From the NCBI RefSeq assembly GCF_014610845.1, contig NZ_JABTCG010000003.1, positions 62,001-126,000 of the forward strand: a stretch of 64,000 nucleotides of DNA, read 5' to 3'. Shown piece by piece: positions 7,778 through 42,073 of the stretch; position 1 is the first letter of the stretch; each line of letters begins with the position of its first letter. Below the pieces are notes generated by a model. That model saw only the letters and a list, made by a program, of their open reading frames with translations. It made no database searches and was not told where the DNA came from. Source of the stretch: Maribacter arenosus (GTDB lineage: Bacteria; Bacteroidota; Bacteroidia; Flavobacteriales; Flavobacteriaceae). The position numbers and the translations under genes were made by a program.

Positions 7778-8083
7778 ATGAGTCAGAAAATCAGAATAAA
7801 ACTAAAATCTTACGATCACAATTTAGTGGACAAGTCCGCGGAGAAAATCGTAAAAACGGTGAAGACTACTGGTGCTGTGGTTACAGGACCAATTCCATTG
7901 CCAACACATAAGAAAATATTCACCGTGTTGCGTTCGCCCCACGTGAACAAAAAATCGCGGGAACAATTTCAGTTGAGCTCTTACAAACGTTTGTTGGATA
8001 TTTATAGTTCATCATCCAAGACGATCGATGCCCTAATGAAGTTAGAACTTCCCAGTGGTGTTGAGGTAGAGATCAAGGTATAA
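7778..8083 (+). CDS. rpsJ: 30S ribosomal protein S10
   Basis: 101 residues. S10 is a 30S head protein and, as NusE, also a transcription antitermination factor. The conserved loop [21 protein letters not shown] is intact up to residue substitutions normal for the phylum, and the C-terminus ends in [11 protein letters not shown]. It opens the S10 block. Unlike most junctions here, it is followed by a long 149-nt gap before rplC that carries inverted repeats (8082-8177). Confidence 0.98.
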
Positions 8084-8177
8084 TTCAACCGTCATTCTTT
8101 ATATAGGAATGACACGAACATGTCCTGAGCTGCGTGCAAGGGAAAAACGGTAACAAAAATTAATTCAGGGTTGAATT
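8082..8177 (+). repeat. Nested inverted repeats in the rpsJ-rplC gap
   Basis: An outer 9-bp perfect inverted repeat, AATTCAACC (8082-8090) and GGTTGAATT (8169-8177), encloses an inner 7-bp hairpin, GTCATTC (8091-8097) and GAATGAC (8107-8113), with a 9-nt loop. The left outer arm begins at the rpsJ stop codon. It may be an intergenic palindromic element or a structured mRNA segment regulating the downstream S10 genes. It has no U-run, so it is not a simple terminator. Confidence 0.5.
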
Positions 8178-8232
8178 GTTTTTGACTCTGTTTTTTTTTA
8201 ACAAAGAATAGTAATAAATAAATAATAGTTAT

Positions 8233-8856
8233 ATGTCTGGGTTATTAGGAAAAAAAGTAGGTATGACCAGCATCTTTGATGAGAATGGGAAAAATGTTCC
8301 CTGTACTGTCATAGAAGCAGGACCATGCGTAGTTACCCAAGTCAGAACCGAAGAGGTAGACGGGTACAATGCCCTTCAGCTTGGTTTCGATGACAAGGCA
8401 GAAAAACGTGCTAACAAGGCCGAAGTAGGCCACTTTAAAAAAGCAGGTGCTTCTCCCAAGAAAAAAGTCATGGAATTCCAAGGATTTGAAGGAGATTACA
8501 AATTAGGGGACACTGTAGGTGTTGATGTATTTGTAGAAGGTGAATTTGTTGATGTTATTGGAACATCAAAAGGAAAAGGATTTCAGGGAGTTGTAAAACG
8601 TCATGGTTTCCGTGGTGTAGGCCAGTCAACGCACGGTCAACATAACCGATTGCGTGCCCCGGGTTCTATCGGTGCGGGATCAGATCCGTCAAGAGTATTC
8701 AAAGGAATGCGGATGGCAGGTAGAATGGGAGGTGATAGGGTAACCGTTCAAAACCTTAAAGTTTTAAAAGTAGTTCCAGAAAAAAATCTTTTAGTGGTAA
8801 AAGGTTGTGTTCCTGGGCATAAGAATGCTTATGTAACCATTAAAAGGTGGCAGTAA
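8233..8856 (+). CDS. rplC: 50S ribosomal protein L3
   Basis: 207 residues. L3 binds domain VI of 23S rRNA early in 50S assembly and reaches towards the peptidyl transferase centre. The central signature [19 protein letters not shown] and the loop [20 protein letters not shown] are complete; the glutamine in the latter is the usual methylation site. The stop overlaps the rplD start in TAATG, so the two are translationally coupled. Confidence 0.98.
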
Positions 8857-9485
8857 TGAAAGTAGCAGTTTTAGATATTAAAGGAAAAGAAACAGGTAGA
8901 AAGGTTGACCTCTCTGATGCTGTTTTCGGAATAGAGCCAAATAACCATGCGGTGTATTTAGATGTGAAGCAGTATTTGGCACATCAAAGACAAGGCACAC
9001 ATAAGGCCAAGGAACGAGCTGAGATTGCTGGTAGTACCAGAAAGATCAAAAAGCAAAAAGGTACCGGTACTGCAAGGGCAGGGAGTATAAAGTCGCCTAT
9101 ATTTAGAGGCGGTGGACGTATTTTTGGACCAAGACCTAAGGATTATAGCCAAAAACTGAACAAAAACGTAAAACGTTTGGCGAGAAAATCGGCGTTGAGT
9201 ATCAAGACAAAAGAGAAGGCCGTTATGGTCGTTGAGGACTTTAGTTTTGAGACACCGAAAACCAAAGATTTCGTACAGGTTTTAAAGGCATTGGGACTCG
9301 AAAACAAAAAATCTTTATTTGTGTTGGGCGATTCAAATAATGGTGTATATTTGTCTTCGCGTAATTTGGAGCTTTCTGAGATTATAACTAATTCAGAATT
9401 AAGTACTTACAAAATATTAAACGCAAATAATATTGTGTTCTTGGAAGGTTCTTTGGAAGGAATTGAATCGAACTTAAATAAATAG
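8856..9485 (+). CDS. rplD: 50S ribosomal protein L4
   Basis: 209 residues from the ATG at 8856, which overlaps the rplC stop by one base. A start 3 codons upstream is possible, but [15 protein letters not shown] is the family N-terminus. L4 has a globular domain and an extended loop that lines the peptide exit tunnel; the loop sequence KQKGTGTARAGS followed by FRGGGRIFGPRP is present. In gamma-proteobacteria L4 autoregulates the S10 operon; whether it does so here is unknown. Confidence 0.98.
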   Translation: MKVAVLDIKGKETGRKVDLSDAVFGIEPNNHAVYLDVKQYLAHQRQGTHKAKERAEIAGSTRKIKKQKGTGTARAGSIKSPIFRGGGRIFGPRPKDYSQKLNKNVKRLARKSALSIKTKEKAVMVVEDFSFETPKTKDFVQVLKALGLENKKSLFVLGDSNNGVYLSSRNLELSEIITNSELSTYKILNANNIVFLEGSLEGIESNLNK

Positions 9486-9491
9486 GAAACC

Positions 9492-9782
9492 ATGAGTGTG
9501 TTGATAAAGCCGATTATAACGGAAAAAATGACTGCGGATAGCGAGTTGCATAATCGTTATGGTTTCATTGTGGATCCCAAGGCGAACAAAATTCAAATCA
9601 AGGAAGCTGTAGAGGCTGCGTATGGTGTTTCGGTGAATAAGGTAAGAACCATGAATTATGGTCCGACCAGAAAGTCAAGATATACCAAAACCGGAATTCA
9701 ACATGGGAAGACAAACGCCATTAAAAAGGCGATTATCGATGTTGCGGAAGGTGACATAATTGATTTTTACAGTAATCTATAA
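9492..9782 (+). CDS. rplW: 50S ribosomal protein L23
   Basis: 96 residues. L23 lies at the exit of the nascent-chain tunnel and is the docking site for trigger factor and the signal recognition particle. The family pattern IIKPIITEKMT near the start, followed by YGFIVDPKANKIQIKEAVE and VNKVRTMNY, is clear. Spacing is 6 nt from rplD and 9 nt to rplB. Confidence 0.97.
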   Translation: MSVLIKPIITEKMTADSELHNRYGFIVDPKANKIQIKEAVEAAYGVSVNKVRTMNYGPTRKSRYTKTGIQHGKTNAIKKAIIDVAEGDIIDFYSNL

Positions 9783-9791
9783 AGACAAAAA

Positions 9792-10616
9792 ATGTCAGTT
9801 AGAAAATTAAAACCAATCACTCCAGGACAGCGTTTTAGAGTAGTAAACGGATTTGACGCCATTACTGCTGATAAGCCGGAGAAAAGCTTGCTTGCTCCGT
9901 TAAAAAAGTCGGGAGGTAGAAACAGTCAAGGAAAAATGACCATACGCCATAGAGGTGGAGGTCATAAAAGGAGGTATCGTTTAATTGATTTTAAAAGAGA
10001 TAAGCAAGGTGTTGCTGCTACGGTAAAATCAATTCAGTATGATCCCAATAGAACGGCTTTCATAGCATTATTGGAATATGCAGATGGGGAAAAGCGATAT
10101 ATAATCGCACAAAATGGTTTACAGGTTGGGCAAACAGTGTCTTCTGGCGAAAATGCCGCACCTGAAATCGGAAATGCATTGCCATTGAACAGTATTCCGT
10201 TAGGTACGATCATTTCTTGTATAGAATTGCGGCCTGGACAAGGTGCGGTGATGGCAAGAAGTGCTGGTACATTTGCACAGTTGATGGCAAAAGAGGGTAA
10301 GTTCGTTACCGTGAAATTGCCATCAGGTGAGACAAGGCTCATTTTAGCGGATTGTTTAGCGACCGTTGGGGCCGTATCCAATTCGGATCACCAATTATTG
10401 GTGTCCGGTAAGGCGGGTAGAAGTAGATGGTTAGGAAGAAGGCCTAGAACTAGACCGGTAGCCATGAACCCAGTGGATCATCCGATGGGTGGTGGTGAAG
10501 GTAGGGCTTCGGGAGGTCATCCAAGATCTAGAAACGGAATTCCTGCAAAAGGCTTTAGAACGCGTTCTAAATCCAAGAGTACAAATAGATATATATTAGA
10601 ACGTAGAAAGAAATAA
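9792..10616 (+). CDS. rplB: 50S ribosomal protein L2
   Basis: 274 residues. L2 is a primary rRNA-binding protein required for subunit association and peptidyl transferase activity. The N-terminal basic segment [20 protein letters not shown], the OB and SH3-like barrels, and the conserved C-terminal [19 protein letters not shown] with its catalytically important histidine are all present. Standard S10 position between rplW and rpsS. Confidence 0.98.
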
Positions 10617-10628
10617 AAAGAAAAATAA

Positions 10629-10907
10629 ATGGCACGTTCATTAAAAAAAGGACCATACGTTCATTATAGCTTGGATAAGAAAATCCAACAAAGTGTAACT
10701 TCTGGCAAGAAAAGCGTTATCAAGACTTGGTCAAGGGCCTCAATGATAACACCTGATTTTGTTGGGTTGACGATCGCGGTACACAATGGTAGACAGTTTG
10801 TACCCGTGTATATCACAGAGAATATGGTAGGTCACAAATTAGGTGAGTTTTCTCCAACAAGATCATTTAGGGGTCATGCAGGAGCTAAGAATAAAGGAAA
10901 AAAGTAA
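10629..10907 (+). CDS. rpsS: 30S ribosomal protein S19
   Basis: 92 residues. S19 pairs with S13 in the 30S head and contacts the A-site tRNA and the subunit bridge. [33 protein letters not shown] and [15 protein letters not shown] are diagnostic. Three nucleotides separate it from rplV. Confidence 0.98.
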
Positions 10908-10910
10908 GCT

Positions 10911-11318
10911 ATGGGAGTTCGAAAAAGACAAATGGCCGAAAGAATTAAGGCTGAAAAACAACAAGTGGCTTTTGCAAAATTGAACAACTGTCCAACATCT
11001 CCGAGAAAGATGAGGTTGGTAGCTGATTTGATCAGAGGGGTCGAGGTAGAGAAAGCATTGGCCATCCTAAGATTCAATTCAAAGGAAGCATCTAGAAGAT
11101 TGGAGAAGTTGCTTTTATCAGCTTTAGCTAACTGGCAGGCAAAGAACGAGGATGCCAATGTAGAAGAAGCCGGTCTTATCGTAAGCGAAATACGCGTCGA
11201 TAGCGGCAGCATGTTAAAAAGATTGCGGCCAGCCCCACAAGGTAGAGCGCACAGAATACGTAAACGTTCAAACCATGTAACAGTGGTATTGGGGTCTAAT
11301 AATAATATAGCAAGCTAG
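10911..11318 (+). CDS. rplV: 50S ribosomal protein L22
   Basis: 135 residues. L22 contacts all six 23S domains and its beta-hairpin forms part of the exit-tunnel constriction. [17 protein letters not shown] and the hairpin tip [19 protein letters not shown] are conserved. The N-terminus [18 protein letters not shown] is longer than in E. coli, as is common in Bacteroidota. One nucleotide separates it from rpsC. Confidence 0.97.
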
Positions 11319-11319
11319 A

Positions 11320-12039
11320 ATGGGACAGAAAACAAATCCGATAGGAAATCGTCTAGGAATTATCAGAGGATGGGAATCCAACTGGTATGGTGGAAATGAT
11401 TATGGTGACAAACTAGCTGAAGACGACAAAATTAGAAAGTATATACATGCGCGTCTTTCCAAGGCCAGTGTATCCAGGGTAATTATCGAACGTACTTTAA
11501 AACTGATCACTGTAACGGTTACTACCGCCAGACCGGGTATTATAATCGGTAAAGGAGGTCAGGAAGTCGATAAGCTTAAAGAAGAGCTTAAGAAGATTAC
11601 CAATAAGGAGGTACAGATCAATATTTATGAGATCAAAAGACCTGAGGTTGACGCGAATTTAGTGGCAGCGAGTATCGCTAGACAGATTGAAAGTAGAATT
11701 TCTTTTAGAAGGGCTATCAAGATGTCGATAGCAGCAGCCATGCGAATGAACGCAGAAGGAATCAAAGTGCAAATTTCAGGACGATTGAACGGTGCGGAAA
11801 TGGCAAGATCTGAATCTTATAAAGATGGCCGTATCCCTTTATCGACCTTTAGGGCCGATATTGATTATGCCCTACATGAAGCCCATACTACCTATGGAAG
11901 ATTGGGGATCAAGGTATGGATAATGAAAGGTGAGGTATTCGGAAAGAGAGAGCTTTCCCCATTGGTCGGTATGCAAAAAGGCCAAGGTGGAAAGGGAGGA
12001 AAGCACGAAGGTCAGAGAAAGCAACGACGTAGAAAGTAA
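11320..12039 (+). CDS. rpsC: 30S ribosomal protein S3
   Basis: 239 residues. S3 forms the mRNA entry site of the 30S head and contributes to mRNA helicase action. The start [20 protein letters not shown], the KH-type motif [15 protein letters not shown] and the C-terminal domain ending in a basic tail rich in K and R are present. Followed by rplP after 20 nt. Confidence 0.98.
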
Positions 12040-35529: not shown

Positions 35530-38100
35530 TTAAAACCTAACCCTGAAACTTATATTGGGGGTAAGGCCCAAAGAAACGCTTTCCACGGTCTCGATCTCAT
35601 CATCATCATTAAGCCGATAATAGGTGTTAAGAATGTTCTTTCTATCGGTAAGGTTAAGAACAGATGCTCCCACCGTTGCATTTATCCTTGGCGATAGTTT
35701 AAAATCATAGATGGCAGAAACATCCATCCTTAGATAATCCGGTAACCGACTACTATTCGCTTCTTGAAAGGAAATTTGACTGGGAAAAAAGCTGGTATCC
35801 ACTGGGTTGTCGGGGTCGGGTTCTGTATACGGTTTTCCGGTTCTATAGTTCAACCCTACACCGATTTTAAATTTGTTATAGGTATAATTACCGGCAAAGG
35901 TGATGGTATGGCGTACATCCAGATTATTGGGAAAGGTCTGGGGTACGATATCCTCGAAGGTATAATCGTTTAGATTATAGGAATAACTAAACCAAGCACT
36001 GTAATCCGATGTTTTTTTATTGACGAGGAATTCCAATCCCTTTACCGTATAACTTCCAATTTCCTCATTAAATTCCCCTTCACTCTGAAAGCCTTGGGTT
36101 CGCGCACTGATACCATTGACTTCTTTATAGAATCCTTCGATACCGACATATAGGCTAGGGTGGTCATAGTTGAGGCCTAAAGAACCTTGCTTGCTTTTGG
36201 TTATGGGTAAGGGCAGTAAAGGGTTATCAGGGTCGGCGATATACCAACGTCGTTTTTCTACGCCCAAAAAATTTTGTTCCAGATCAACGACCTGATGGGT
36301 GGTTTGGTTCTTGAACTCACCCTGTAGTTCCATTTTAAGATTATCCACAAGTTCATAATTGACATTTAGCCGTGGTTCGATAAAAAATTCACTGAAGGTG
36401 TTGAGGTTTTCAGAATAATTGAGACGGGTACCTCCACGAGCAAAGAGCTTCTTGTCGGGAGATCGGTATTCCAATTCGGAAAAAAGGGCATGTGTTCGCA
36501 TAACCCCCTTTATTTTGTTGCTATATGGAGGTTGGGTCACATCTGAAAAGTTTAAAATCCCTGTTTCCGTTAATTGGTATCCATTTGACCAAGTTAAATT
36601 TTCGCTTAAGCTATAGGCAGTATTCAACTTTAGTGCGGTTTCAATAACTTCGTTTTCTTGGGATAGCAGCTGAGGTGAATTTACGGTAGTATTATCCGAA
36701 TCAAGATTATAACGGGTATAATAGGCATTGATTTTTGTAGTGAAGATATCGCTCCAACGACTATCCAAACTACCCCCAATAGAAATATTCACTTGGTTCA
36801 ACTTGCTCCTGGTTTCGCGTAAGGCCGTAAGATTCTGTTCTGTATAATCCAGATTATTATTGATGTTGATAAAACTGATACGAACTTTGTGGTCGGGACT
36901 TATATCGAACAAAAGCTTTCCTGTAAAATCATAGAAATAGAAATCCTGGGTCCTTTTGATTTCGTCGGTCTGACCACTAGTACTCATGATTTGACTATCT
37001 TGGAAAGCCCTATCGGAAAATTGATTATAGGTCGGGGTGTCAAAAAAGTCGGTCAATGAGCGTCGTGCGGAGAACAGGAATGCGGCATTTTGGGCAATGG
37101 GAACATAGCCATAAACATCCCCATTGATCAAATTGAAACCGGTACCTCCATAAAAATCCCCGGTAATATCATTTTTGGTTTCCATATCTAGGACCCCACT
37201 AACCCCATCACCATATTGGGCACTGGTACCATTTTTTATAAGGGTTACCTTGTCTGTCAAATACGGATTGAACGCTGAAATAAGACCAAAAAAGTGCCCG
37301 GATTGGTACATTTTTATACCATCCCAAAGGATAAGGTTCTGATCATTTGTTCCTCCTCGGATGTTGATGTTCGATACGGTTTCGTCAATACTTTCAATTC
37401 CTGGCAGGGCTTGAACGGTCTGAAGGACATCTGGTTCTATCAAACCTGGTAGAATACCGAAATCCTTAGTGGTCAATTGAATGCTGGCATCGATCTCCTT
37501 GCTTAGTCCTGTAGTTAAAAATTGATATACGATGACTTCATCTAATTGTTCGTATTTCAAATCTAATACTAAAGTCTTACAGGGATTATGGCTGACCAAT
37601 TCCTCTGCCGTAATAAACAAGGGTTTAAAGCCTATATGCTTTATTTGGATCATCGACTTTCTTGGAATATTTTCCATAGAAAAATATCCATCACTATCGG
37701 TAATCATGGCAATATCACTATTGAGCACCGAAACTGAAGACCCGGTAACGGTATTTTCTTTGAAATTGTCCAAAACCGTTGCGCAGATATCTACCGTTAT
37801 GCTTTTTGTGACGGTATAATAGCGCTCATTCAATTTTTGAATTTTCAACTGTGTCTGATCTCGAATATCGGAAAGTATGTCTTGAAGATCTTCAAAATGG
37901 CTGCTTTTGATGGTAATATCGGTGATATCGGCATCAATATAGGAGAACTTAATGTCATACCTAGTTTCAAGGCTTCGAAGTACGGAAATGAGTTTTTTAG
38001 CCGTGACGGAATCGTCCTGTGCCATTATTTTGGAGAAGGAAAAAAACAATAGCAGGCACGCAATAATCGATAAAAGCGGTTTATGGTGCGCTTTCGGCAT
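35530..38100 (-). CDS. TonB-dependent receptor with STN and carboxypeptidase-like N-terminal domains
   Basis: 856 residues. A signal peptide ends near SKIMAQ. It is followed by a secretin/TonB N-terminal (STN) domain, residues about 30-100, a carboxypeptidase regulatory-like domain (SVLNSDIAMITDSDGYFSM), the plug (DVLQTVQALPGIESIDETVS, NINIRGGTNDQNLILWDGI) and a C-terminal barrel ending in ISFRVRF. The STN domain marks a transducer that contacts the anti-sigma factor FecR, so it both imports and signals. The start overlaps the end of the fecR-like gene by 20 nt. The ligand is unknown; no SusD partner is encoded next to it. Confidence 0.9.
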   Translation of the reverse strand: MPKAHHKPLLSIIACLLLFFSFSKIMAQDDSVTAKKLISVLRSLETRYDIKFSYIDADITDITIKSSHFEDLQDILSDIRDQTQLKIQKLNERYYTVTKSITVDICATVLDNFKENTVTGSSVSVLNSDIAMITDSDGYFSMENIPRKSMIQIKHIGFKPLFITAEELVSHNPCKTLVLDLKYEQLDEVIVYQFLTTGLSKEIDASIQLTTKDFGILPGLIEPDVLQTVQALPGIESIDETVSNINIRGGTNDQNLILWDGIKMYQSGHFFGLISAFNPYLTDKVTLIKNGTSAQYGDGVSGVLDMETKNDITGDFYGGTGFNLINGDVYGYVPIAQNAAFLFSARRSLTDFFDTPTYNQFSDRAFQDSQIMSTSGQTDEIKRTQDFYFYDFTGKLLFDISPDHKVRISFININNNLDYTEQNLTALRETRSKLNQVNISIGGSLDSRWSDIFTTKINAYYTRYNLDSDNTTVNSPQLLSQENEVIETALKLNTAYSLSENLTWSNGYQLTETGILNFSDVTQPPYSNKIKGVMRTHALFSELEYRSPDKKLFARGGTRLNYSENLNTFSEFFIEPRLNVNYELVDNLKMELQGEFKNQTTHQVVDLEQNFLGVEKRRWYIADPDNPLLPLPITKSKQGSLGLNYDHPSLYVGIEGFYKEVNGISARTQGFQSEGEFNEEIGSYTVKGLEFLVNKKTSDYSAWFSYSYNLNDYTFEDIVPQTFPNNLDVRHTITFAGNYTYNKFKIGVGLNYRTGKPYTEPDPDNPVDTSFFPSQISFQEANSSRLPDYLRMDVSAIYDFKLSPRINATVGASVLNLTDRKNILNTYYRLNDDDEIETVESVSLGLTPNISFRVRF

Positions 38101-38992
38101 AGAACAACACTTTATTCCCTTCTAATTTAAACTTTATTCGGGAAGGTACACTAATACTCTGTAACGCCAAATCTGTATTTGTGTTGCTAAAAGTGCCGGT
38201 AAATAATTTACCCAAATCAATATTTTGGGTCTTGACCTTTACATTGTGTTGTCTTTGAAATTCATCCAAAACATATTTTAGTGGAATACTCTTAAAAGTA
38301 CTCTCATTATCCATCCAAGAGGGATTTAGGTTCTTTGGTTCTTCAGCTGGGACGATTTCGCCCTCAACAACCATAAAGGAAGTGCCTGCAGGTAATTTGG
38401 TTTCCGAGCCTTTATAGCTTACGCTAACCAAACCTTCAAAACAGGTTACCTCGAAAAAACCTTCACGACCTTCTACATTGAATTGCGTACCCAATACCGC
38501 TACAGTACCATGATCTGTTGTTACGGTAAAACGTTCACCTTTGGCTACTTTGAAGAAAGCTTCACCATTTAATGATACATTTCTTTCTGTGTCCCACTTT
38601 TTCTTACTATACGCTATTTTGGAATCGGCATTCATAATGATCTCAGAGGAATCCGGAAGAATCACCTCTTTATTCTCCGCAAACTGGGTGGTGATATTTT
38701 CATTTAAGGTATTTAAATAAAAATAGGAGCCTACCATAATAATGGTCACAGCTGCGGCAACCTTCAGGAATCTTCTGAACGGTTTCAGTTGCACCACTTT
38801 TGGTTCTTGCAAGATTCGTTTGTTCTTTATGGCCTGCAACGCATCTTCGACATCGAAATCTGGCCCTTCCATGGTTTTGGAAGCTTCCAGAATTCGCTGA
38901 TAAGAAGCATACTCGTCAGATTTTTTAAATACTGCGAGTTCTTCCTCAGTGAGTTCGTTATTGAGCCATTTTGCCAAGTAATTCTCTTGCAT
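38081..38992 (-). CDS. FecR-family anti-sigma factor
   Basis: 303 residues: a cytoplasmic N-terminal part of about 72 residues, one membrane helix (about residues 73-93, KVAAAVTIIMVGSYFYLN) and a periplasmic FecR domain (EVILPDSSEIIMNADSKIAY, VSLNGEAFFKVAKGERFTV, GTQFNVEG). The C-terminal DUF4974-like part begins around FKSIPLKYVLDEFQRQHN. It holds the ECF sigma factor inactive until the TonB receptor signals. It is the middle gene of sigma-FecR-receptor. A heptad-repeat element lies between it and the sigma gene. Confidence 0.93.
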   Translation of the reverse strand: MQENYLAKWLNNELTEEELAVFKKSDEYASYQRILEASKTMEGPDFDVEDALQAIKNKRILQEPKVVQLKPFRRFLKVAAAVTIIMVGSYFYLNTLNENITTQFAENKEVILPDSSEIIMNADSKIAYSKKKWDTERNVSLNGEAFFKVAKGERFTVTTDHGTVAVLGTQFNVEGREGFFEVTCFEGLVSVSYKGSETKLPAGTSFMVVEGEIVPAEEPKNLNPSWMDNESTFKSIPLKYVLDEFQRQHNVKVKTQNIDLGKLFTGTFSNTNTDLALQSISVPSRIKFKLEGNKVLFYAESAP

Positions 38993-39060
38993 GATTTCTA
39001 GCTTTACTATTTAATAACAATCCAGGTTCTAAAAACCCTACTTGTTCTTTTTATTTTTTG

Positions 39061-39159
39061 TTATTAATTGGTCGTTGATGGTATTATAATTATTGGGCGG
39101 AAACAATAATAATGTCAATATTTTCCATCAACCATCAACCATCAACCATCAACCATCAA
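39061..39159 (-). repeat. Heptad-repeat element between the ECF sigma and fecR genes
   Basis: On the plus strand five perfect tandem copies of CCATCAA occupy 39125-39159. Facing them are TTGATGG (39075-39081) and the related TTGGTCG (39068-39074), which are inverted units. Read along the minus-strand transcript this is five TTGATGG units, a spacer of about 43 nt, then two or three inverted units. It is the same five-plus-two layout as upstream of rpmD and rpsK, with a different unit. It begins 5 nt after the sigma stop codon. Confidence 0.75.
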
Positions 39160-39164
39160 CCCGT

Positions 39165-39677
39165 TCATATTCCATCGATTTGTTCCCTTAAGGATTTCAA
39201 AGCCAAATGCATCCGCTTTTCTATGGCCTTGATACTAACCCCTTCCATTTCGGCTATTTCAGCATATTTTTTACCATCGATCCTGTTTAATAAAAATGTG
39301 GTTCGCTGGTTTTCGGGCAGCGCTTGCAAGGCATTGTCCAATTTTAGTTTAAACTCATTTTCCTCCATGACATATTCTGGGGTCTCATGATTGGTCGTAG
39401 TTACCCTATCGGCATATTTTAAACGTACCTTCTCAGCCTTTAATACATTCAGGTAAAGGTTATTGGCTATGGTATAAACATAAGCTTTGGCCTTAGCCGG
39501 GGTCACCTTGGCACAGTTCTCCCAAAGTCGTGCAAAAGCTTCCTGTACAGCGTCATAGGCTTTTTCTTCATTACCGTACTTATAATATATGTAGTTAAAA
39601 ACCGTTTTGGAATTAGCCCTGAAGAGTGTACTGTATACCTCTTCATCACATACGTTATCCTTGGTGTCCGTGTTCAA
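39165..39677 (-). CDS. ECF RNA polymerase sigma factor
   Basis: 170 residues of the sigma-70 ECF class. Region 2 is seen in VYSTLFRANSKTVFNYIYYK and AYDAVQEAFARLWENC. Region 4 is LQALPENQRTTFLLNRIDGK followed by the helix-turn-helix KYAEIAEMEGVSIKAIEKRM. It is the transcription activator of a FecIR-type system whose anti-sigma and receptor follow. No ATG fits; the first codon is TTG at 39675-39677, supported by a -7 box 17 nt upstream and an in-frame stop further up. Confidence 0.9.
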   Translation of the reverse strand: MNTDTKDNVCDEEVYSTLFRANSKTVFNYIYYKYGNEEKAYDAVQEAFARLWENCAKVTPAKAKAYVYTIANNLYLNVLKAEKVRLKYADRVTTTNHETPEYVMEENEFKLKLDNALQALPENQRTTFLLNRIDGKKYAEIAEMEGVSIKAIEKRMHLALKSLREQIDGI

Positions 39678-39693
39678 TTCGTTGGTTTTGTAC

Positions 39694-39701
39694 CAAAGAT
39701 A
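39694..39701 (-). promoter_or_regulatory. -7 box of the ECF sigma gene
   Basis: On the minus strand this reads TATCTTTG, a perfect TAnnTTTG match. The implied transcript begins about 12 nt before the TTG start codon at 39677. It lies in the 107-nt divergent region shared with the lipoprotein gene at 39785. Confidence 0.5.
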
Positions 39702-39784
39702 TTTGAAAAAAATGAAATATTAGGGTAGGGTATTTTTAAAGTGGGTTGTTTCATAGTCATACGAACAAAAAATACCAAATCGTT

Positions 39785-41548
39785 ATGAAAAAGTTTTTTA
39801 GTTACGCATTTTACACAAGCCTACTGGTAATAGCGTTGAGTTTTACGTCTTGTCAGGATGAATTTGAACCGTTACCGGAGGAAGGTGTCCAGGCAGAAGC
39901 GATTGCAGCGAGTTCCACAACTGCAAAATTAATCGAGGATACATGTTCCAATGATGGCTCTTTTGACAATATTGTGGACGAGTCGAGCTGTTTCAATATT
40001 AATTTTCCATACCGGGTCAAGGCCAACGGAGTCGATTTAACCATTAATTCTATCGATGACCTAGATTCCATTGAGGAGATTTTTGATGCCCTTGAGGAAG
40101 ATGAGGACATAATTGATATCATATTTCCTATTACCATCACCTTGGCGGATTATGCCGAGATTACCATAAACGGTATCGAAGATCTAAGGGAACTTGCCAA
40201 AGAATGTAGGGAAGGTGGCGATGATGACGACATTGAATGTATTGATTTTGTGTATCCGATCACCTTGTACACTTTTGATCTCAACAATGAGGAAACAGGA
40301 AATTTCACAGTAGAAAGTGATAAGAATCTAAGACGTTTCTTTGCCGGATTGGATCAAAATGATTTGATCGGTATTGATTTTCCTATTACGTTAAAACTTT
40401 ATGATGGTACTGAGGTGGTAGTGAATACTAACGCCGAATTGGCCAATGCCATTGAAAATGCAAAGGAATTATGTGATGAGGATGATGACAATGACCATAA
40501 TGACGATGATTTTACGCAAGAAGATTTAGCGGATTATTTGGTATCGTGCCCTTGGTTGGTCAAAGAGGTAAAGAGAAACGATCAATTACAAACAGACCAA
40601 TACTTCGACTATGTAATGAATTTTAAAGAGGATGGTAATGTAACTGTAAATGATAGGGAAGGAAACAGCATGACAGGTATATGGAGTATCAGGGAGACAG
40701 ATTTCGCCCTACTTCTCAAATTGGAGTTTGAAACACTGGTCGATTTTAATCTAGAATGGTTTATATATGAGCAGGGTGAAGGTACGATCAAATTACACGT
40801 AAGTGACGGCAATAGGATAATCATGAAAAAAGGTTGTGACATCATCAACGATGATCCAACTACCTTACGTGAAGCACTAAAAGAGTGCGGCTGGATAATT
40901 AAAAAGGTATTCTATGATGGCCAAGAAGTAAAAAGACTATTAGGTTTTGAGTTCAATTTCGAGGCTGAAGGTGTTGTTACTTTAAGCAATGGGGATCTAG
41001 TTTCCCAAGGAAGTTGGGAGATAACGGTTAATGAACAAGGACGTTTGGTAATGGCGATTACAATGGGTGAAGAACCCGGAGTTAGTTTCGAATGGCCTTT
41101 AAGTGAACTTAGAAATGAGCGATTGAAGTTTGAGATTCCCGGTACCGATTATATGTTGATTCTTGAAAGGAATTGTGATAATGATGATAACGATGAAGAT
41201 GTAACTTGGATCAGGGGATTATTCAATGACACCGATTGGGAATTGGCTTTGTTCTCTCAAAATGAAGACCCCCTTACCGAGGCTTATGCCGATTATACCT
41301 ATAGATTTGGTATGGATGGTACTATCACGGTACTCGATATGGTTATGACCGAAATCAGTGCAGGCAACTGGTATGTGTATCGAAATAGCGATGGTAAATT
41401 GGAGATGATCATTCGTTTTGGATCTGATAGTAACTTCTATCCGTTAGGCAATGATTACAAGATCCTAGAAATAGAAGAAAACCGATTGGAGCTAAAGCAC
41501 GAGAATGACTATGATGGATATGACCATCTCGTTTTCGAAAAGAAATAA
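39785..41548 (+). CDS. Acidic multi-repeat lipoprotein with lipocalin-like repeats
   Basis: 587 residues from the ATG at 39785 (an upstream in-frame start at 39746 does not fit a signal peptide). Lipobox SFTSC with C23, then QDEFE, an acidic stretch that in Bacteroidota favours surface export. Four repeats of about 45 residues follow with a FPI/FPY core: INFPYRVKANGVDLTIN, IIFPITITLADYAEITIN, DFVYPITLYTFDLNN, IDFPITLKLYDGTEVVVN. An Asp-rich linker (DEDDDNDHNDDD) leads to three lipocalin-like repeats, each starting near a tryptophan (CPWLVKEV, CGWIIKKV, TDWELALF). Divergent from the ECF sigma gene. Ligand unknown. Confidence 0.8.
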   Translation: MKKFFSYAFYTSLLVIALSFTSCQDEFEPLPEEGVQAEAIAASSTTAKLIEDTCSNDGSFDNIVDESSCFNINFPYRVKANGVDLTINSIDDLDSIEEIFDALEEDEDIIDIIFPITITLADYAEITINGIEDLRELAKECREGGDDDDIECIDFVYPITLYTFDLNNEETGNFTVESDKNLRRFFAGLDQNDLIGIDFPITLKLYDGTEVVVNTNAELANAIENAKELCDEDDDNDHNDDDFTQEDLADYLVSCPWLVKEVKRNDQLQTDQYFDYVMNFKEDGNVTVNDREGNSMTGIWSIRETDFALLLKLEFETLVDFNLEWFIYEQGEGTIKLHVSDGNRIIMKKGCDIINDDPTTLREALKECGWIIKKVFYDGQEVKRLLGFEFNFEAEGVVTLSNGDLVSQGSWEITVNEQGRLVMAITMGEEPGVSFEWPLSELRNERLKFEIPGTDYMLILERNCDNDDNDEDVTWIRGLFNDTDWELALFSQNEDPLTEAYADYTYRFGMDGTITVLDMVMTEISAGNWYVYRNSDGKLEMIIRFGSDSNFYPLGNDYKILEIEENRLELKHENDYDGYDHLVFEKK

Positions 41549-41556
41549 ATTTATGA

Positions 41557-41591
41557 TAACCCCGATGACTTTGCGCATCGGGGTTACTTTG
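41557..41591 (+). terminator. Terminator after the multi-repeat lipoprotein
   Basis: TAACCCCGATG (41557-41567) and CATCGGGGTTA (41576-41586) form a perfect 11-bp stem with an 8-nt loop, followed by the T-rich CTTTGTT. The next gene starts 30 nt later. Confidence 0.8.
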
Positions 41592-41620
41592 TTAACATAA
41601 CCCCAAAAACCTACTTACCT

Positions 41621-42073
41621 ATGAAACGAAGAATAATTTGTATGGCAATTGCCTTGCTTAGTATAGGACTGATCAGTTCTTGCAGTGAGGATGAAGTAAA
41701 AGTGGACGAAGAAATCACAGCGGCCGATATGGCAAGCATAAAAGCCACGGTTGAATCTGGTGATTGGAGCATCAGCAAATATTCTGATGATGATATTGAT
41801 GAAACCAGTAACTATGTTGGTTTCAGTTTTAGGTTCAATTCCGATGGTACGCTTGGGGCAACTGATGGGAATACTTCAGTGTCGGGAGCGTGGTCAATGA
41901 CCACATCGGAGGCCGATGAACTCGATTTCAATATATTTTTCACGGCCCCTGATATATTTGAAGAACTTGCCGATGATTGGGAAGTCTTGAAATATTCAAG
42001 CTCTAAAATCGAACTGATCGACATAAGTGATGATGAAAGTTCAACCGACTATTTGACCTTTGAAAAAAAATAA
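41621..42073 (+). CDS. Small lipoprotein with one lipocalin-like domain
   Basis: 150 residues. Lipobox GLISSC, then SEDEVKVDEE, a strongly acidic start that suggests transport to the cell surface. The domain runs from WSISKYSDDD through YVGFSFRFNSDGTLGATDG and VSGAWSMTTSEADELDFN to DYLTFEKK. It matches the third repeat of the preceding protein in layout, including the shared ending LVFEKK/LTFEKK, so the two probably arose by duplication. Function unknown; binding of a small ligand or a polysaccharide is plausible for this fold. Confidence 0.8.
   Translation: MKRRIICMAIALLSIGLISSCSEDEVKVDEEITAADMASIKATVESGDWSISKYSDDDIDETSNYVGFSFRFNSDGTLGATDGNTSVSGAWSMTTSEADELDFNIFFTAPDIFEELADDWEVLKYSSSKIELIDISDDESSTDYLTFEKK

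Follow-up and report, generated by a model that had tools for sequence, protein, structure and literature searches.

A predicted Fec-type surface-signalling module with a divergent multidomain lipoprotein and a candidate small RNA in Maribacter arenosus and related Flavobacteriaceae

Organization of the locus

We describe here a gene module found in a stretch of 64,000 nucleotides (nt) of the genome of Maribacter arenosus (assembly GCF_014610845.1, contig NZ_JABTCG010000003.1, positions 62,001 to 126,000), which we call the window and whose first letter is position 1; the genome is G000 in our sample (4.17 Mb) and the window belongs to its contig 18. The module associates an extracytoplasmic function (ECF) sigma factor, a FecR-type regulator and a TonB-dependent receptor with a divergently encoded lipoprotein, LipoA, and it is probably a Fec-type cell-surface signalling switch, with three outputs: the receptor operon, a surface lipoprotein and a small RNA (sRNA) encoded elsewhere in the genome. 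The features of the locus are the following.

35530–38100, minus strand: TonB-dependent receptor gene, overlapping fecR by 20 nt (open reading frame list and Pfam)
38081–38992, minus strand: fecR, FecR-type anti-sigma/sigma regulator (PF04773, 72 bits; PF16344, 32.6 bits; both above cut-off)
39016–39041, minus strand: predicted ECF promoter of the fecR–receptor operon, GTAGGGT-N15-TGTT (motif scan)
39165–39677, minus strand: ECF sigma factor gene, TTG start, recognition helix SIKAIEKRMH (open reading frame, Pfam, sigma alignment)
39694–39701, minus strand: putative housekeeping -7 box of the sigma gene, TATCTTTG (TAnnTTTG; match to the flavobacterial consensus)
39725–39750, plus strand: predicted ECF promoter of lipoA, GTAGGGT-N15-TGTT (motif scan)
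39785–41548, plus strand: lipoA, lipoprotein of 587 residues, ATG at 39785, stop at 41548, lipid Cys23 followed by QDEFE
39896–40513, plus strand: FPI domain of LipoA, residues 38–243, four repeats and two acidic Cys-flanked linkers (alignment, predicted fold)
40517–40837, plus strand: predicted lipocalin-fold domain 1 of LipoA, residues 245–351 (Z 11.2 over 97 residues at 2.2 Å with 8u2f_A; Z 10.9 with 4qrl)
40847–41179, plus strand: predicted lipocalin-fold domain 2, residues 355–465 (Z 10.5 with 4nw4 and 10.0 with 4kh8, both at 4.0 Å)
41186–41545, plus strand: predicted lipocalin-fold domain 3, residues 468–587 (Z 10.4 with 8ehd, residues 474–587)
41558–41586, plus strand: terminator-like hairpin in the lipoA–lipoB gap, AACCCCGATG / CATCGGGGTT (read from the sequence)
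41621–42073, plus strand: lipoB, lipoprotein of 150 residues with one lipocalin-like domain, facultative (open reading frame, similarity to LipoA)

The divergent lipoA and sigma genes are indeed separated by 107 nt (39677 to 39785), as stated in a preliminary description limited to positions 39165–42073. The fecR and receptor genes lie beyond that segment, on the minus strand and 3' of the sigma gene, and probably form one operon, since the receptor gene overlaps fecR.

Conservation of the module

In our sample of 299 genomes from the window's family, a LipoA relative is found in 198 (E ≤ 1e-5) and the receptor in 205 (E ≤ 1e-100). The co-occurrence of lipoprotein and sigma cassette across genomes, proposed earlier as a check, is clear: 191 genomes have both LipoA and the receptor, 7 only LipoA, 14 only the receptor and 87 neither (Fisher p of about 3e-51, shared ancestry being ignored in this value). 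In a sample of the whole phylum, the LipoA profile matches 43 of 395 genomes, and 36 of these belong to the family of the window. Outside it there are seven matches: six are weak and cover the C-terminal domain only (E 1.9e-14 to 4.6e-19), and that of G345 includes the FPI region as well (E 9e-63).

Sixty regions were fetched, namely the 40 top matches in rank order (three were skipped) and 20 others selected so that paralogous forms, as well as short and long ones, were represented. All 60 have lipoA diverging from the gene of a related sigma factor, and fecR lies next to the sigma gene, at no more than about 0.7 kb, in 58, the exceptions being L039, where it is 7.5 kb away, and L059 (3.3 kb). 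Most LipoA orthologues are beside Ffh–FolD, and ten regions without Ffh (L072, L075–L079, L081, L088, L090 and L091) keep the layout of the module. In the window, the open reading frames between 31.7 and 47.1 kb include neighbours that, by their sequences, are presumably ArgS, Ffh, FolD and a peptidase.

The proteins of the module also covary. In 24 of 35 modules (11 were dropped because not all eight genes are present), the two halves of LipoA give partial correlations with the receptor of 0.51 and 0.58, corrected for Ffh, FolD and ArgS, and of 0.22 with each other. The sigma factor and FecR covary with the receptor more strongly (0.74 and 0.76), and ArgS, used as a control, gives negative values. 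LipoA may be a surface partner of the receptor.

Promoters and sigma factor specificity

The motif GTAGGGT-N15-TGT, or a class variant of it (scanned as [GT][TC]AGG[AGT]-N16-TGT), is present upstream of lipoA in 61 of 62 cases, a count that includes the window and omits L082, for which the frame finder gave a downstream reading frame, and upstream of fecR in 60 of 61. It lies 41–97 nt before the start of lipoA and 40–138 nt before that of fecR; it is missing before the second LipoA gene of L070 and before the fecR of L091, and it is kept where fecR has moved away from the sigma gene (L039 and L059). No region out of 61 has the same motif upstream of the sigma gene.

A scan of both strands of the 61 regions (1.15 Mb) for the strict form, GTAGGGT-N15-TGTT, yields 77 sites, of which 39 precede lipoA and 38 precede fecR, with none elsewhere. 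A looser pattern gives 214 sites (62 for lipoA, 60 for fecR, 1 for lipoB, 1 for another gene and 90 unplaced) against 61 for the reversed control. When one mismatch is allowed in the window, 4 sites are found in 64 kb against 0.8 expected, a number reached in none of 100 shuffled sequences.

The sigma gene itself is preceded by TAnnTTTG in 38 of the 61 regions, whereas shuffled sequences would give 5.2. According to PMC9723704, this is the -7 box of the flavobacterial sigma-A, and SM6, a motif which the same source assigns to ECF sigma factors, has a CGT -10 box and differs from the motif of the module. Short tandem CATCAAC repeats (39125–39161) lie between the 3' end of the sigma gene and the fecR promoter.

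The promoters of lipoA and fecR are of the same class in all 59 modules for which the two are available: 38 modules are of the GTAGGG class, 13 of the GTAGGA/T class and 8 of the TCAGG class. Four genomes (G182, G126, G231 and G102) have two modules of different class, each of which is matched internally. The class is tracked by the recognition helix (region 4.2) of the sigma factor, which reads S[VI]KA[IV]EKR, usually with MH or IH next, in the GTAGGG class, S[TS]KAVEKRIY in the GTAGGA/T class and VT.KV[VI]EYR in the TCAGG class. In G000, 16 of 26 hits to ECF-like sigma factors are above cut-off, and 15 were compared after leaving out L290 (sigma-like, with a frame of 520 residues); the window's own sigma factor is the only one of the 15 that has the helix AIEKRMH. 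Within the limits of this comparison, the motif can be assigned to the window's sigma factor, because the promoter class tracks the recognition helix and because this helix is unique among the 15 sigma factors compared in G000.

It is very likely that lipoA and the fecR–receptor operon are under common sigma control, on account of their co-occurrence, their synteny and the ECF-type promoter which they share. The preliminary description considered a co-regulation of the two lipoproteins by the sigma factor and asked whether their promoters share a motif with that of the receptor; this is strongly supported for lipoA, while the case of lipoB is weak, as this gene follows lipoA in only 17 of 60 regions (window included) and lacks a separate motif in the 64-kb window. 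Since it also sits behind a terminator-like hairpin, it would at most be reached by read-through. LipoB resembles residues 465–587 of LipoA (28%, E 1.5e-8) and is a facultative, lipocalin-domain satellite of the module.

The proteins of the module

No curated family of Pfam or NCBIfam matches LipoA or LipoB above cut-off. In G000, LipoA is in single copy and LipoB is its relative. The four FPI repeats, the acidic linkers and the three lipocalin-like domains that had been read in the 587-residue sequence are all borne out by alignment and by structure prediction. The four prolines of the repeats are invariant in 82 aligned sequences; the acidic Cys-flanked loops are invariant too. The FPI domain is predicted to consist of four strand–helix units, each with two or three strands followed by a helix (predicted local distance difference test score 87, predicted template-modelling score 0.81), and the models have eight strands in each lipocalin-like domain.

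The repeat domains had been considered impossible to name. This still applies to the FPI domain, for which Foldseek gives a best E of 0.14 and VIA-align a best Z of 5.7 (58 residues, with RimK), below the Z of 8 that this tool describes as common; the missing match in the PDB does not prove that the fold is new. PB1 was also considered: 26 of 82 members match it at E ≤ 0.1, with a best value of 3.2e-5, and the LipoA of the window scores 16.3 bits for a cut-off of 23.6, which we take as a hint only. The three C-terminal domains, on the contrary, can be named as lipocalin-fold from their predicted structures: VIA-align gives Z values of 10–11 with lipocalin-like proteins, ToxS and potempin E, and the leading matches cover 89–108 residues at 2.2–4.0 Å. 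No lipocalin sequence profile matches them in Pfam (E ≤ 10) or NCBIfam (E ≤ 1). A similarity of the whole of LipoA to TbpB-like proteins (template-modelling, TM, score of 0.13 or less) is not to be trusted. In L038, two LipoA genes are in tandem (8057–9799 and 10009–11760); they are 43% and 63% identical to that of the window, and each has its own GTAGGGT promoter.

The acidic residues noticed after the lipidated cysteine are conserved as well: at least two aspartates or glutamates are found within the five residues that follow it in 55 of 62 LipoA genes, the commonest motifs being QEEFE (17 of 62) and QDEFE (10), if the lipidated residue is taken as the first cysteine in residues 13–45, a rule that is plainly wrong in 3 of the 62 rows. 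In Capnocytophaga canimorsus, the acidic signals SDDFE and QKDDE send lipoproteins to the surface, according to PMC5080379; by analogy, LipoA is probably surface-exposed.

In the sigma factor, Sigma70_r2 (PF04542, 44.1 bits) and Sigma70_r4_2 (PF08281, 59.2 bits) are above the Pfam cut-off, and so are the FecR and FecR_C domains of the FecR protein, whose hydrophobic stretch FLKVAAAVTIIMVGSYFYL qualifies as a predicted transmembrane segment. The receptor has an N-terminus similar to FecR_C or STN (sub-threshold), a CarboxypepD_reg-like domain, a plug (38.7 bits, above the Pfam cut-off) and a barrel. In other modules, the score of the receptor N-terminus against FecR_C is 20.4 bits in L085 and 26.2 bits in L077, and FecR_C is not listed for L032; STN scores 18.2 bits in the L077 receptor, under its cut-off of 28.4. 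Phmmer finds no receptor homologue of known structure, and in a profile search of structures only the CarboxypepD_reg part has matches, to four receptor or SusC-like chains. The receptors of the GTAGGA class (L066–L071, L074, L082–L087 and L089) have an alignment that starts at about residue 180 or is split in two; for L085, the one receptor of this class that was checked, Pfam lists the FecR_C/STN-like N-terminus but no CarboxypepD_reg-like domain.

Other genes with the motif and a candidate sRNA

The strict motif occurs 9 times in the whole of G000, against 2 in the reversed control. We studied 46 sites outside the module in seven genomes: G000 (6 of 7 sites), G032, G258, G683, G685, G686 and G018 (4 of 10). 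A 47th site, L092, was set aside as it lies inside a reading frame. Ten of the 46 also lie within reading frames, so that not every site is real. Two families of genes for tiny predicted membrane proteins, one of about 55 residues and one of 29–34 residues, have the motif in all seven genomes, those of Maribacter relatives; the first is fully translated only in L233 and was recognised by DNA similarity in the other genomes.

Tiny membrane-protein genes, about 55 residues: L094, L216, L220, L229, L233, L249, L251
Tiny membrane-protein genes, 29–34 residues: L098, L214, L222, L227, L237, L244, L252

The other clusters of motif-bearing sites are a non-coding unit (seven of seven genomes), a glycosyltransferase (six of seven), an oxidoreductase (two) and pairs or singletons, and a lipoprotein that has the motif in three genomes is presumably DUF4382-like.

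The non-coding unit is a candidate sRNA. In G000 it lies outside the window, on the minus strand of contig C20 (423716–423858; promoter at 7834–7859 of L212), between reading frames which we take to be guaA and pdxH. A covariance model was made from the seven units, with the promoters removed, and gives 30 hits in 29 of 199 genomes of the family (E ≤ 1e-3, strict filters). The GTAGGGT motif accompanies 24 of these hits, its first nucleotide being 87–254 nt upstream of the hit centre. The six hits that have no motif are weak (E 1.8e-4 to 8.8e-4), but three of the hits with the motif are just as weak. All 24 genomes with a motif-bearing sRNA contain LipoA.

Common to the 24 sequences are a nearly invariant element of 20 nt, TTCATGTGTTTAGGTTGGTT, a conserved 5' element, AAATTGCTATGAAAAAG, and a terminator of varying sequence. 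The stems covary: both sides are changed in 56 cells, against 15.8 when shuffled and at most 11 when slid, in an alignment of 28 matches (the 24 and 4 weak extra ones at the same loci) that was fitted to the model, so that the counts lean towards it. The unit combines a predicted ECF promoter, covarying stems and a terminator, as an ECF-controlled sRNA would, and the sigma factor very probably turns it on too. Searches of Rfam with the seven loci give only sub-threshold hits, nothing being above the gathering score. A micro-reading frame (MCLGWFFDFD) was rejected, as it is interrupted in both G000 and G150 and as the spacing downstream shifts the frame. The 5' element (L301–L326) resembles the leader and start codon of lipoA (CCAAATCGTTATGAAAAAG, window positions 39770–39790), possibly because of a common origin or because it acts as a decoy. 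In L323 (G026), a second, altered copy of the sRNA core follows the first.

Possible targets were looked for in 20 genomes with the complement of the 20-mer, allowing up to 3 mismatches. Of the 34 sites found, 19 are sRNA genes; the sRNA of G000 itself was missed, since it differs by a deletion. Among 11 readable sites outside sRNA genes, 4 place an ATG at the start of a reading frame of at least 476 residues, and the best candidate, with 19 of 20 positions matched, covers the start codon of a G103 lipoprotein gene (centre of L356), the three others being weaker. The pattern itself contains ATGAA, which favours gene starts, and these matches are a lead only. By eye, the L356 lipoprotein is amidohydrolase-like. 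A shorter 11-mer has 9 sites in two genomes, one of which is the sRNA; its reversed control has 6, and no pattern stands out.

Proposed mechanism and alternatives

We consider that a Fec-type switch is the most probable function of the module. The sigma gene would be read from a housekeeping promoter, and FecR would hold the sigma factor until the N-terminal domain of the receptor passes on a signal from the surface. The released sigma factor would then read the two flanking promoters of the same sequence, that of the fecR–receptor operon to the left (sensor and feedback) and that of lipoA to the right; as fecR is itself within the control of the sigma factor, the feedback would be negative if FecR is inhibitory. 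In the clade of the window, the sigma factor would in addition read, at other places of the genome, the sRNA and the genes of the tiny membrane proteins. LipoA most probably works with the receptor outside the cell, by capturing a ligand or by covering the mouth of the receptor, and the sRNA may adjust other envelope mRNAs. The gene linkage, the shared promoters, the covariation of promoter and sigma factor and the structure and promoter of the sRNA come from the comparison of genomes; the surface location of LipoA, the ligand, the contact of LipoA with the receptor, the direction of signalling and the targets of the sRNA are inferred.

Several observations do not favour this mechanism. The N-terminal signalling domain of the receptor is below the Pfam cut-off in the window (FecR_C 20.4 bits, cut-off 24.4), and the TAnnTTTG box of the sigma gene is clear mainly in the GTAGGGT class. 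The promoter classes were drawn up after the sites had been seen, the 60 regions were selected from hits and not at random, and the pairwise distances used for covariation are not independent, so that the correlations are supportive and not a proof. With strict filters, only 29 of 199 genomes have the sRNA, a number well below that of the genomes with LipoA, and it has no established target, the scan of 20 genomes giving 15 sites outside sRNA genes against 12 in the reversed control. Last, the glycosyltransferase is not a conserved member of the regulon: the motif is at none of 15 hits in 13 of the 14 genomes searched, among which G143 and G077 are of the GTAGGGT class, although some of these hits, which are 35–57% identical, may not be orthologues. 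Its motif is either restricted to the Maribacter group or due to chance.

The strongest alternative, which we regard as a real possibility though not the favoured one, is that the system is a sigma-linked nutrient uptake system, in which LipoA is a SusD-like lid for one substrate (metal, peptide or glycan) and has no wider role in the envelope. The receptor has a plug and a CarboxypepD_reg-like domain as in SusC, LipoA covaries with it, and lipocalin folds often bind small ligands. Foldseek also returns a distant match to a surface glycan-binding protein of Bacteroides, with a probability of 0.97–0.99 but a TM score of 0.29 or less. However, LipoA and LipoB match no SusD family of Pfam at E ≤ 10, the neighbouring genes (those presumably encoding ArgS, Ffh, FolD and a peptidase, 31.7–47.1 kb) include no catabolic or inner-membrane uptake set, and the promoter is shared by the genes of the sRNA and of the tiny membrane proteins.

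It may also be, but this is rather unlikely, that LipoA is itself the signal, the receptor reading its arrival at the surface or its loading, so that the circuit would monitor the export of lipoproteins or the state of the outer membrane, as an envelope stress response does. LipoA and the fecR–receptor operon are the two outputs common to nearly all modules, the start of LipoA looks like an export signal, and the sRNA and the tiny membrane-protein genes belong to the motif set, all of which suits such a circuit; 14 of the 205 genomes that have the receptor nevertheless give no LipoA hit, though the two thresholds differ. That LipoA is merely a divergent neighbour with a regulation of its own, linked to the module by the conserved gene order next to Ffh, is very improbable, since the module keeps its layout and its matched promoter classes (59 of 59) in paralogous copies away from the Ffh–FolD site where most orthologues are.

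Returning to the Fec-type switch, it can be extended, tentatively and with some doubt on our part, to a circuit of envelope homeostasis similar to that of sigma-E, in which the outer surface would be sensed by a TonB-dependent receptor and not by a protease cascade. The response would consist of LipoA, a giant acidic lipoprotein of the surface, of the tiny membrane proteins and of the sRNA. LipoA would be both an output and the ligand or gate of the receptor, the sRNA would tune envelope mRNAs by covering start codons, the FPI domain would be a new fold, and paralogous circuits would be insulated by the re-tuning of sigma factor and promoter (GTAGGG, GTAGGA, TCAGG).

Comparison with known systems

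Systems of this kind are already known, and it is for the LipoA family, the two-sided layout of the promoters, the class-wise promoter code and the sRNA that no match was found in the literature; the search for the LipoA family, the module and the sRNA bore on full texts, subscription papers and preprints being outside its coverage. Flavobacteriaceae are major degraders of marine polymers, in which the pairs of ECF sigma factors and promoters and the control by surface sensors are largely unmapped. Comparison alone gives here the predicted sigma factor, promoter code, regulator, sensor, main lipoprotein output and sRNA. The three natural classes of promoter and sigma factor, sometimes two in one genome, are a ready test of the specificity and insulation of ECF sigma factors. 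The FPI domain defines an unnamed family, present in about two thirds of the sampled genomes of the family and nearly always with the sensor, and the sRNA is an entry point to the post-transcriptional control of the envelope in Bacteroidota.

Like FecA–FecR–FecI of E. coli, which responds to ferric citrate, and FpvA or PupB of Pseudomonas, the module consists of an ECF sigma factor, a FecR-type regulator and a receptor with an N-terminal domain. In the fec system, the receptor is under sigma control and the sigma gene is not autoregulated, according to PMC9249621. The sigma gene of the module also appears to be outside its own control, as in fecIR; unlike in fecIR, the fecR–receptor operon has a predicted ECF promoter of its own, and the sigma gene is probably transcribed apart from fecR. 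The divergent surface-type lipoprotein and the sRNA, as a second output, distinguish the module from Fec, FpvA and PupB, and no iron or ABC transport genes are recognised beside it, unlike in Fec.

The module can also be compared to the SusC/SusD systems of Bacteroidota that are under ECF control, with which it shares a receptor with a CarboxypepD_reg-like and, below threshold, an STN-like domain and, putatively, a partner lipoprotein (the role of STN in SusC is treated in PMC7782687). Unlike SusD, LipoA has no SusD match and is encoded divergently and not downstream, and no polysaccharide locus is recognised.

In Bacteroides thetaiotaomicron, the Dma/Das system depends on an ECF sigma factor, has NigD1, which is specific to Bacteroidota, among its outputs and affects the envelope; the word FecR is absent from this paper on Dma2 (PMC13088901). 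Unlike Dma, a dual-membrane-spanning anti-sigma factor, the module uses FecR and a receptor.

Last, MicA and RybB, the sRNAs of the enterobacterial sigma-E regulon, have a terminator and a promoter recognised by an ECF sigma factor. The sRNA of the module is similar in both respects, with its terminator and its predicted ECF sigma promoter.

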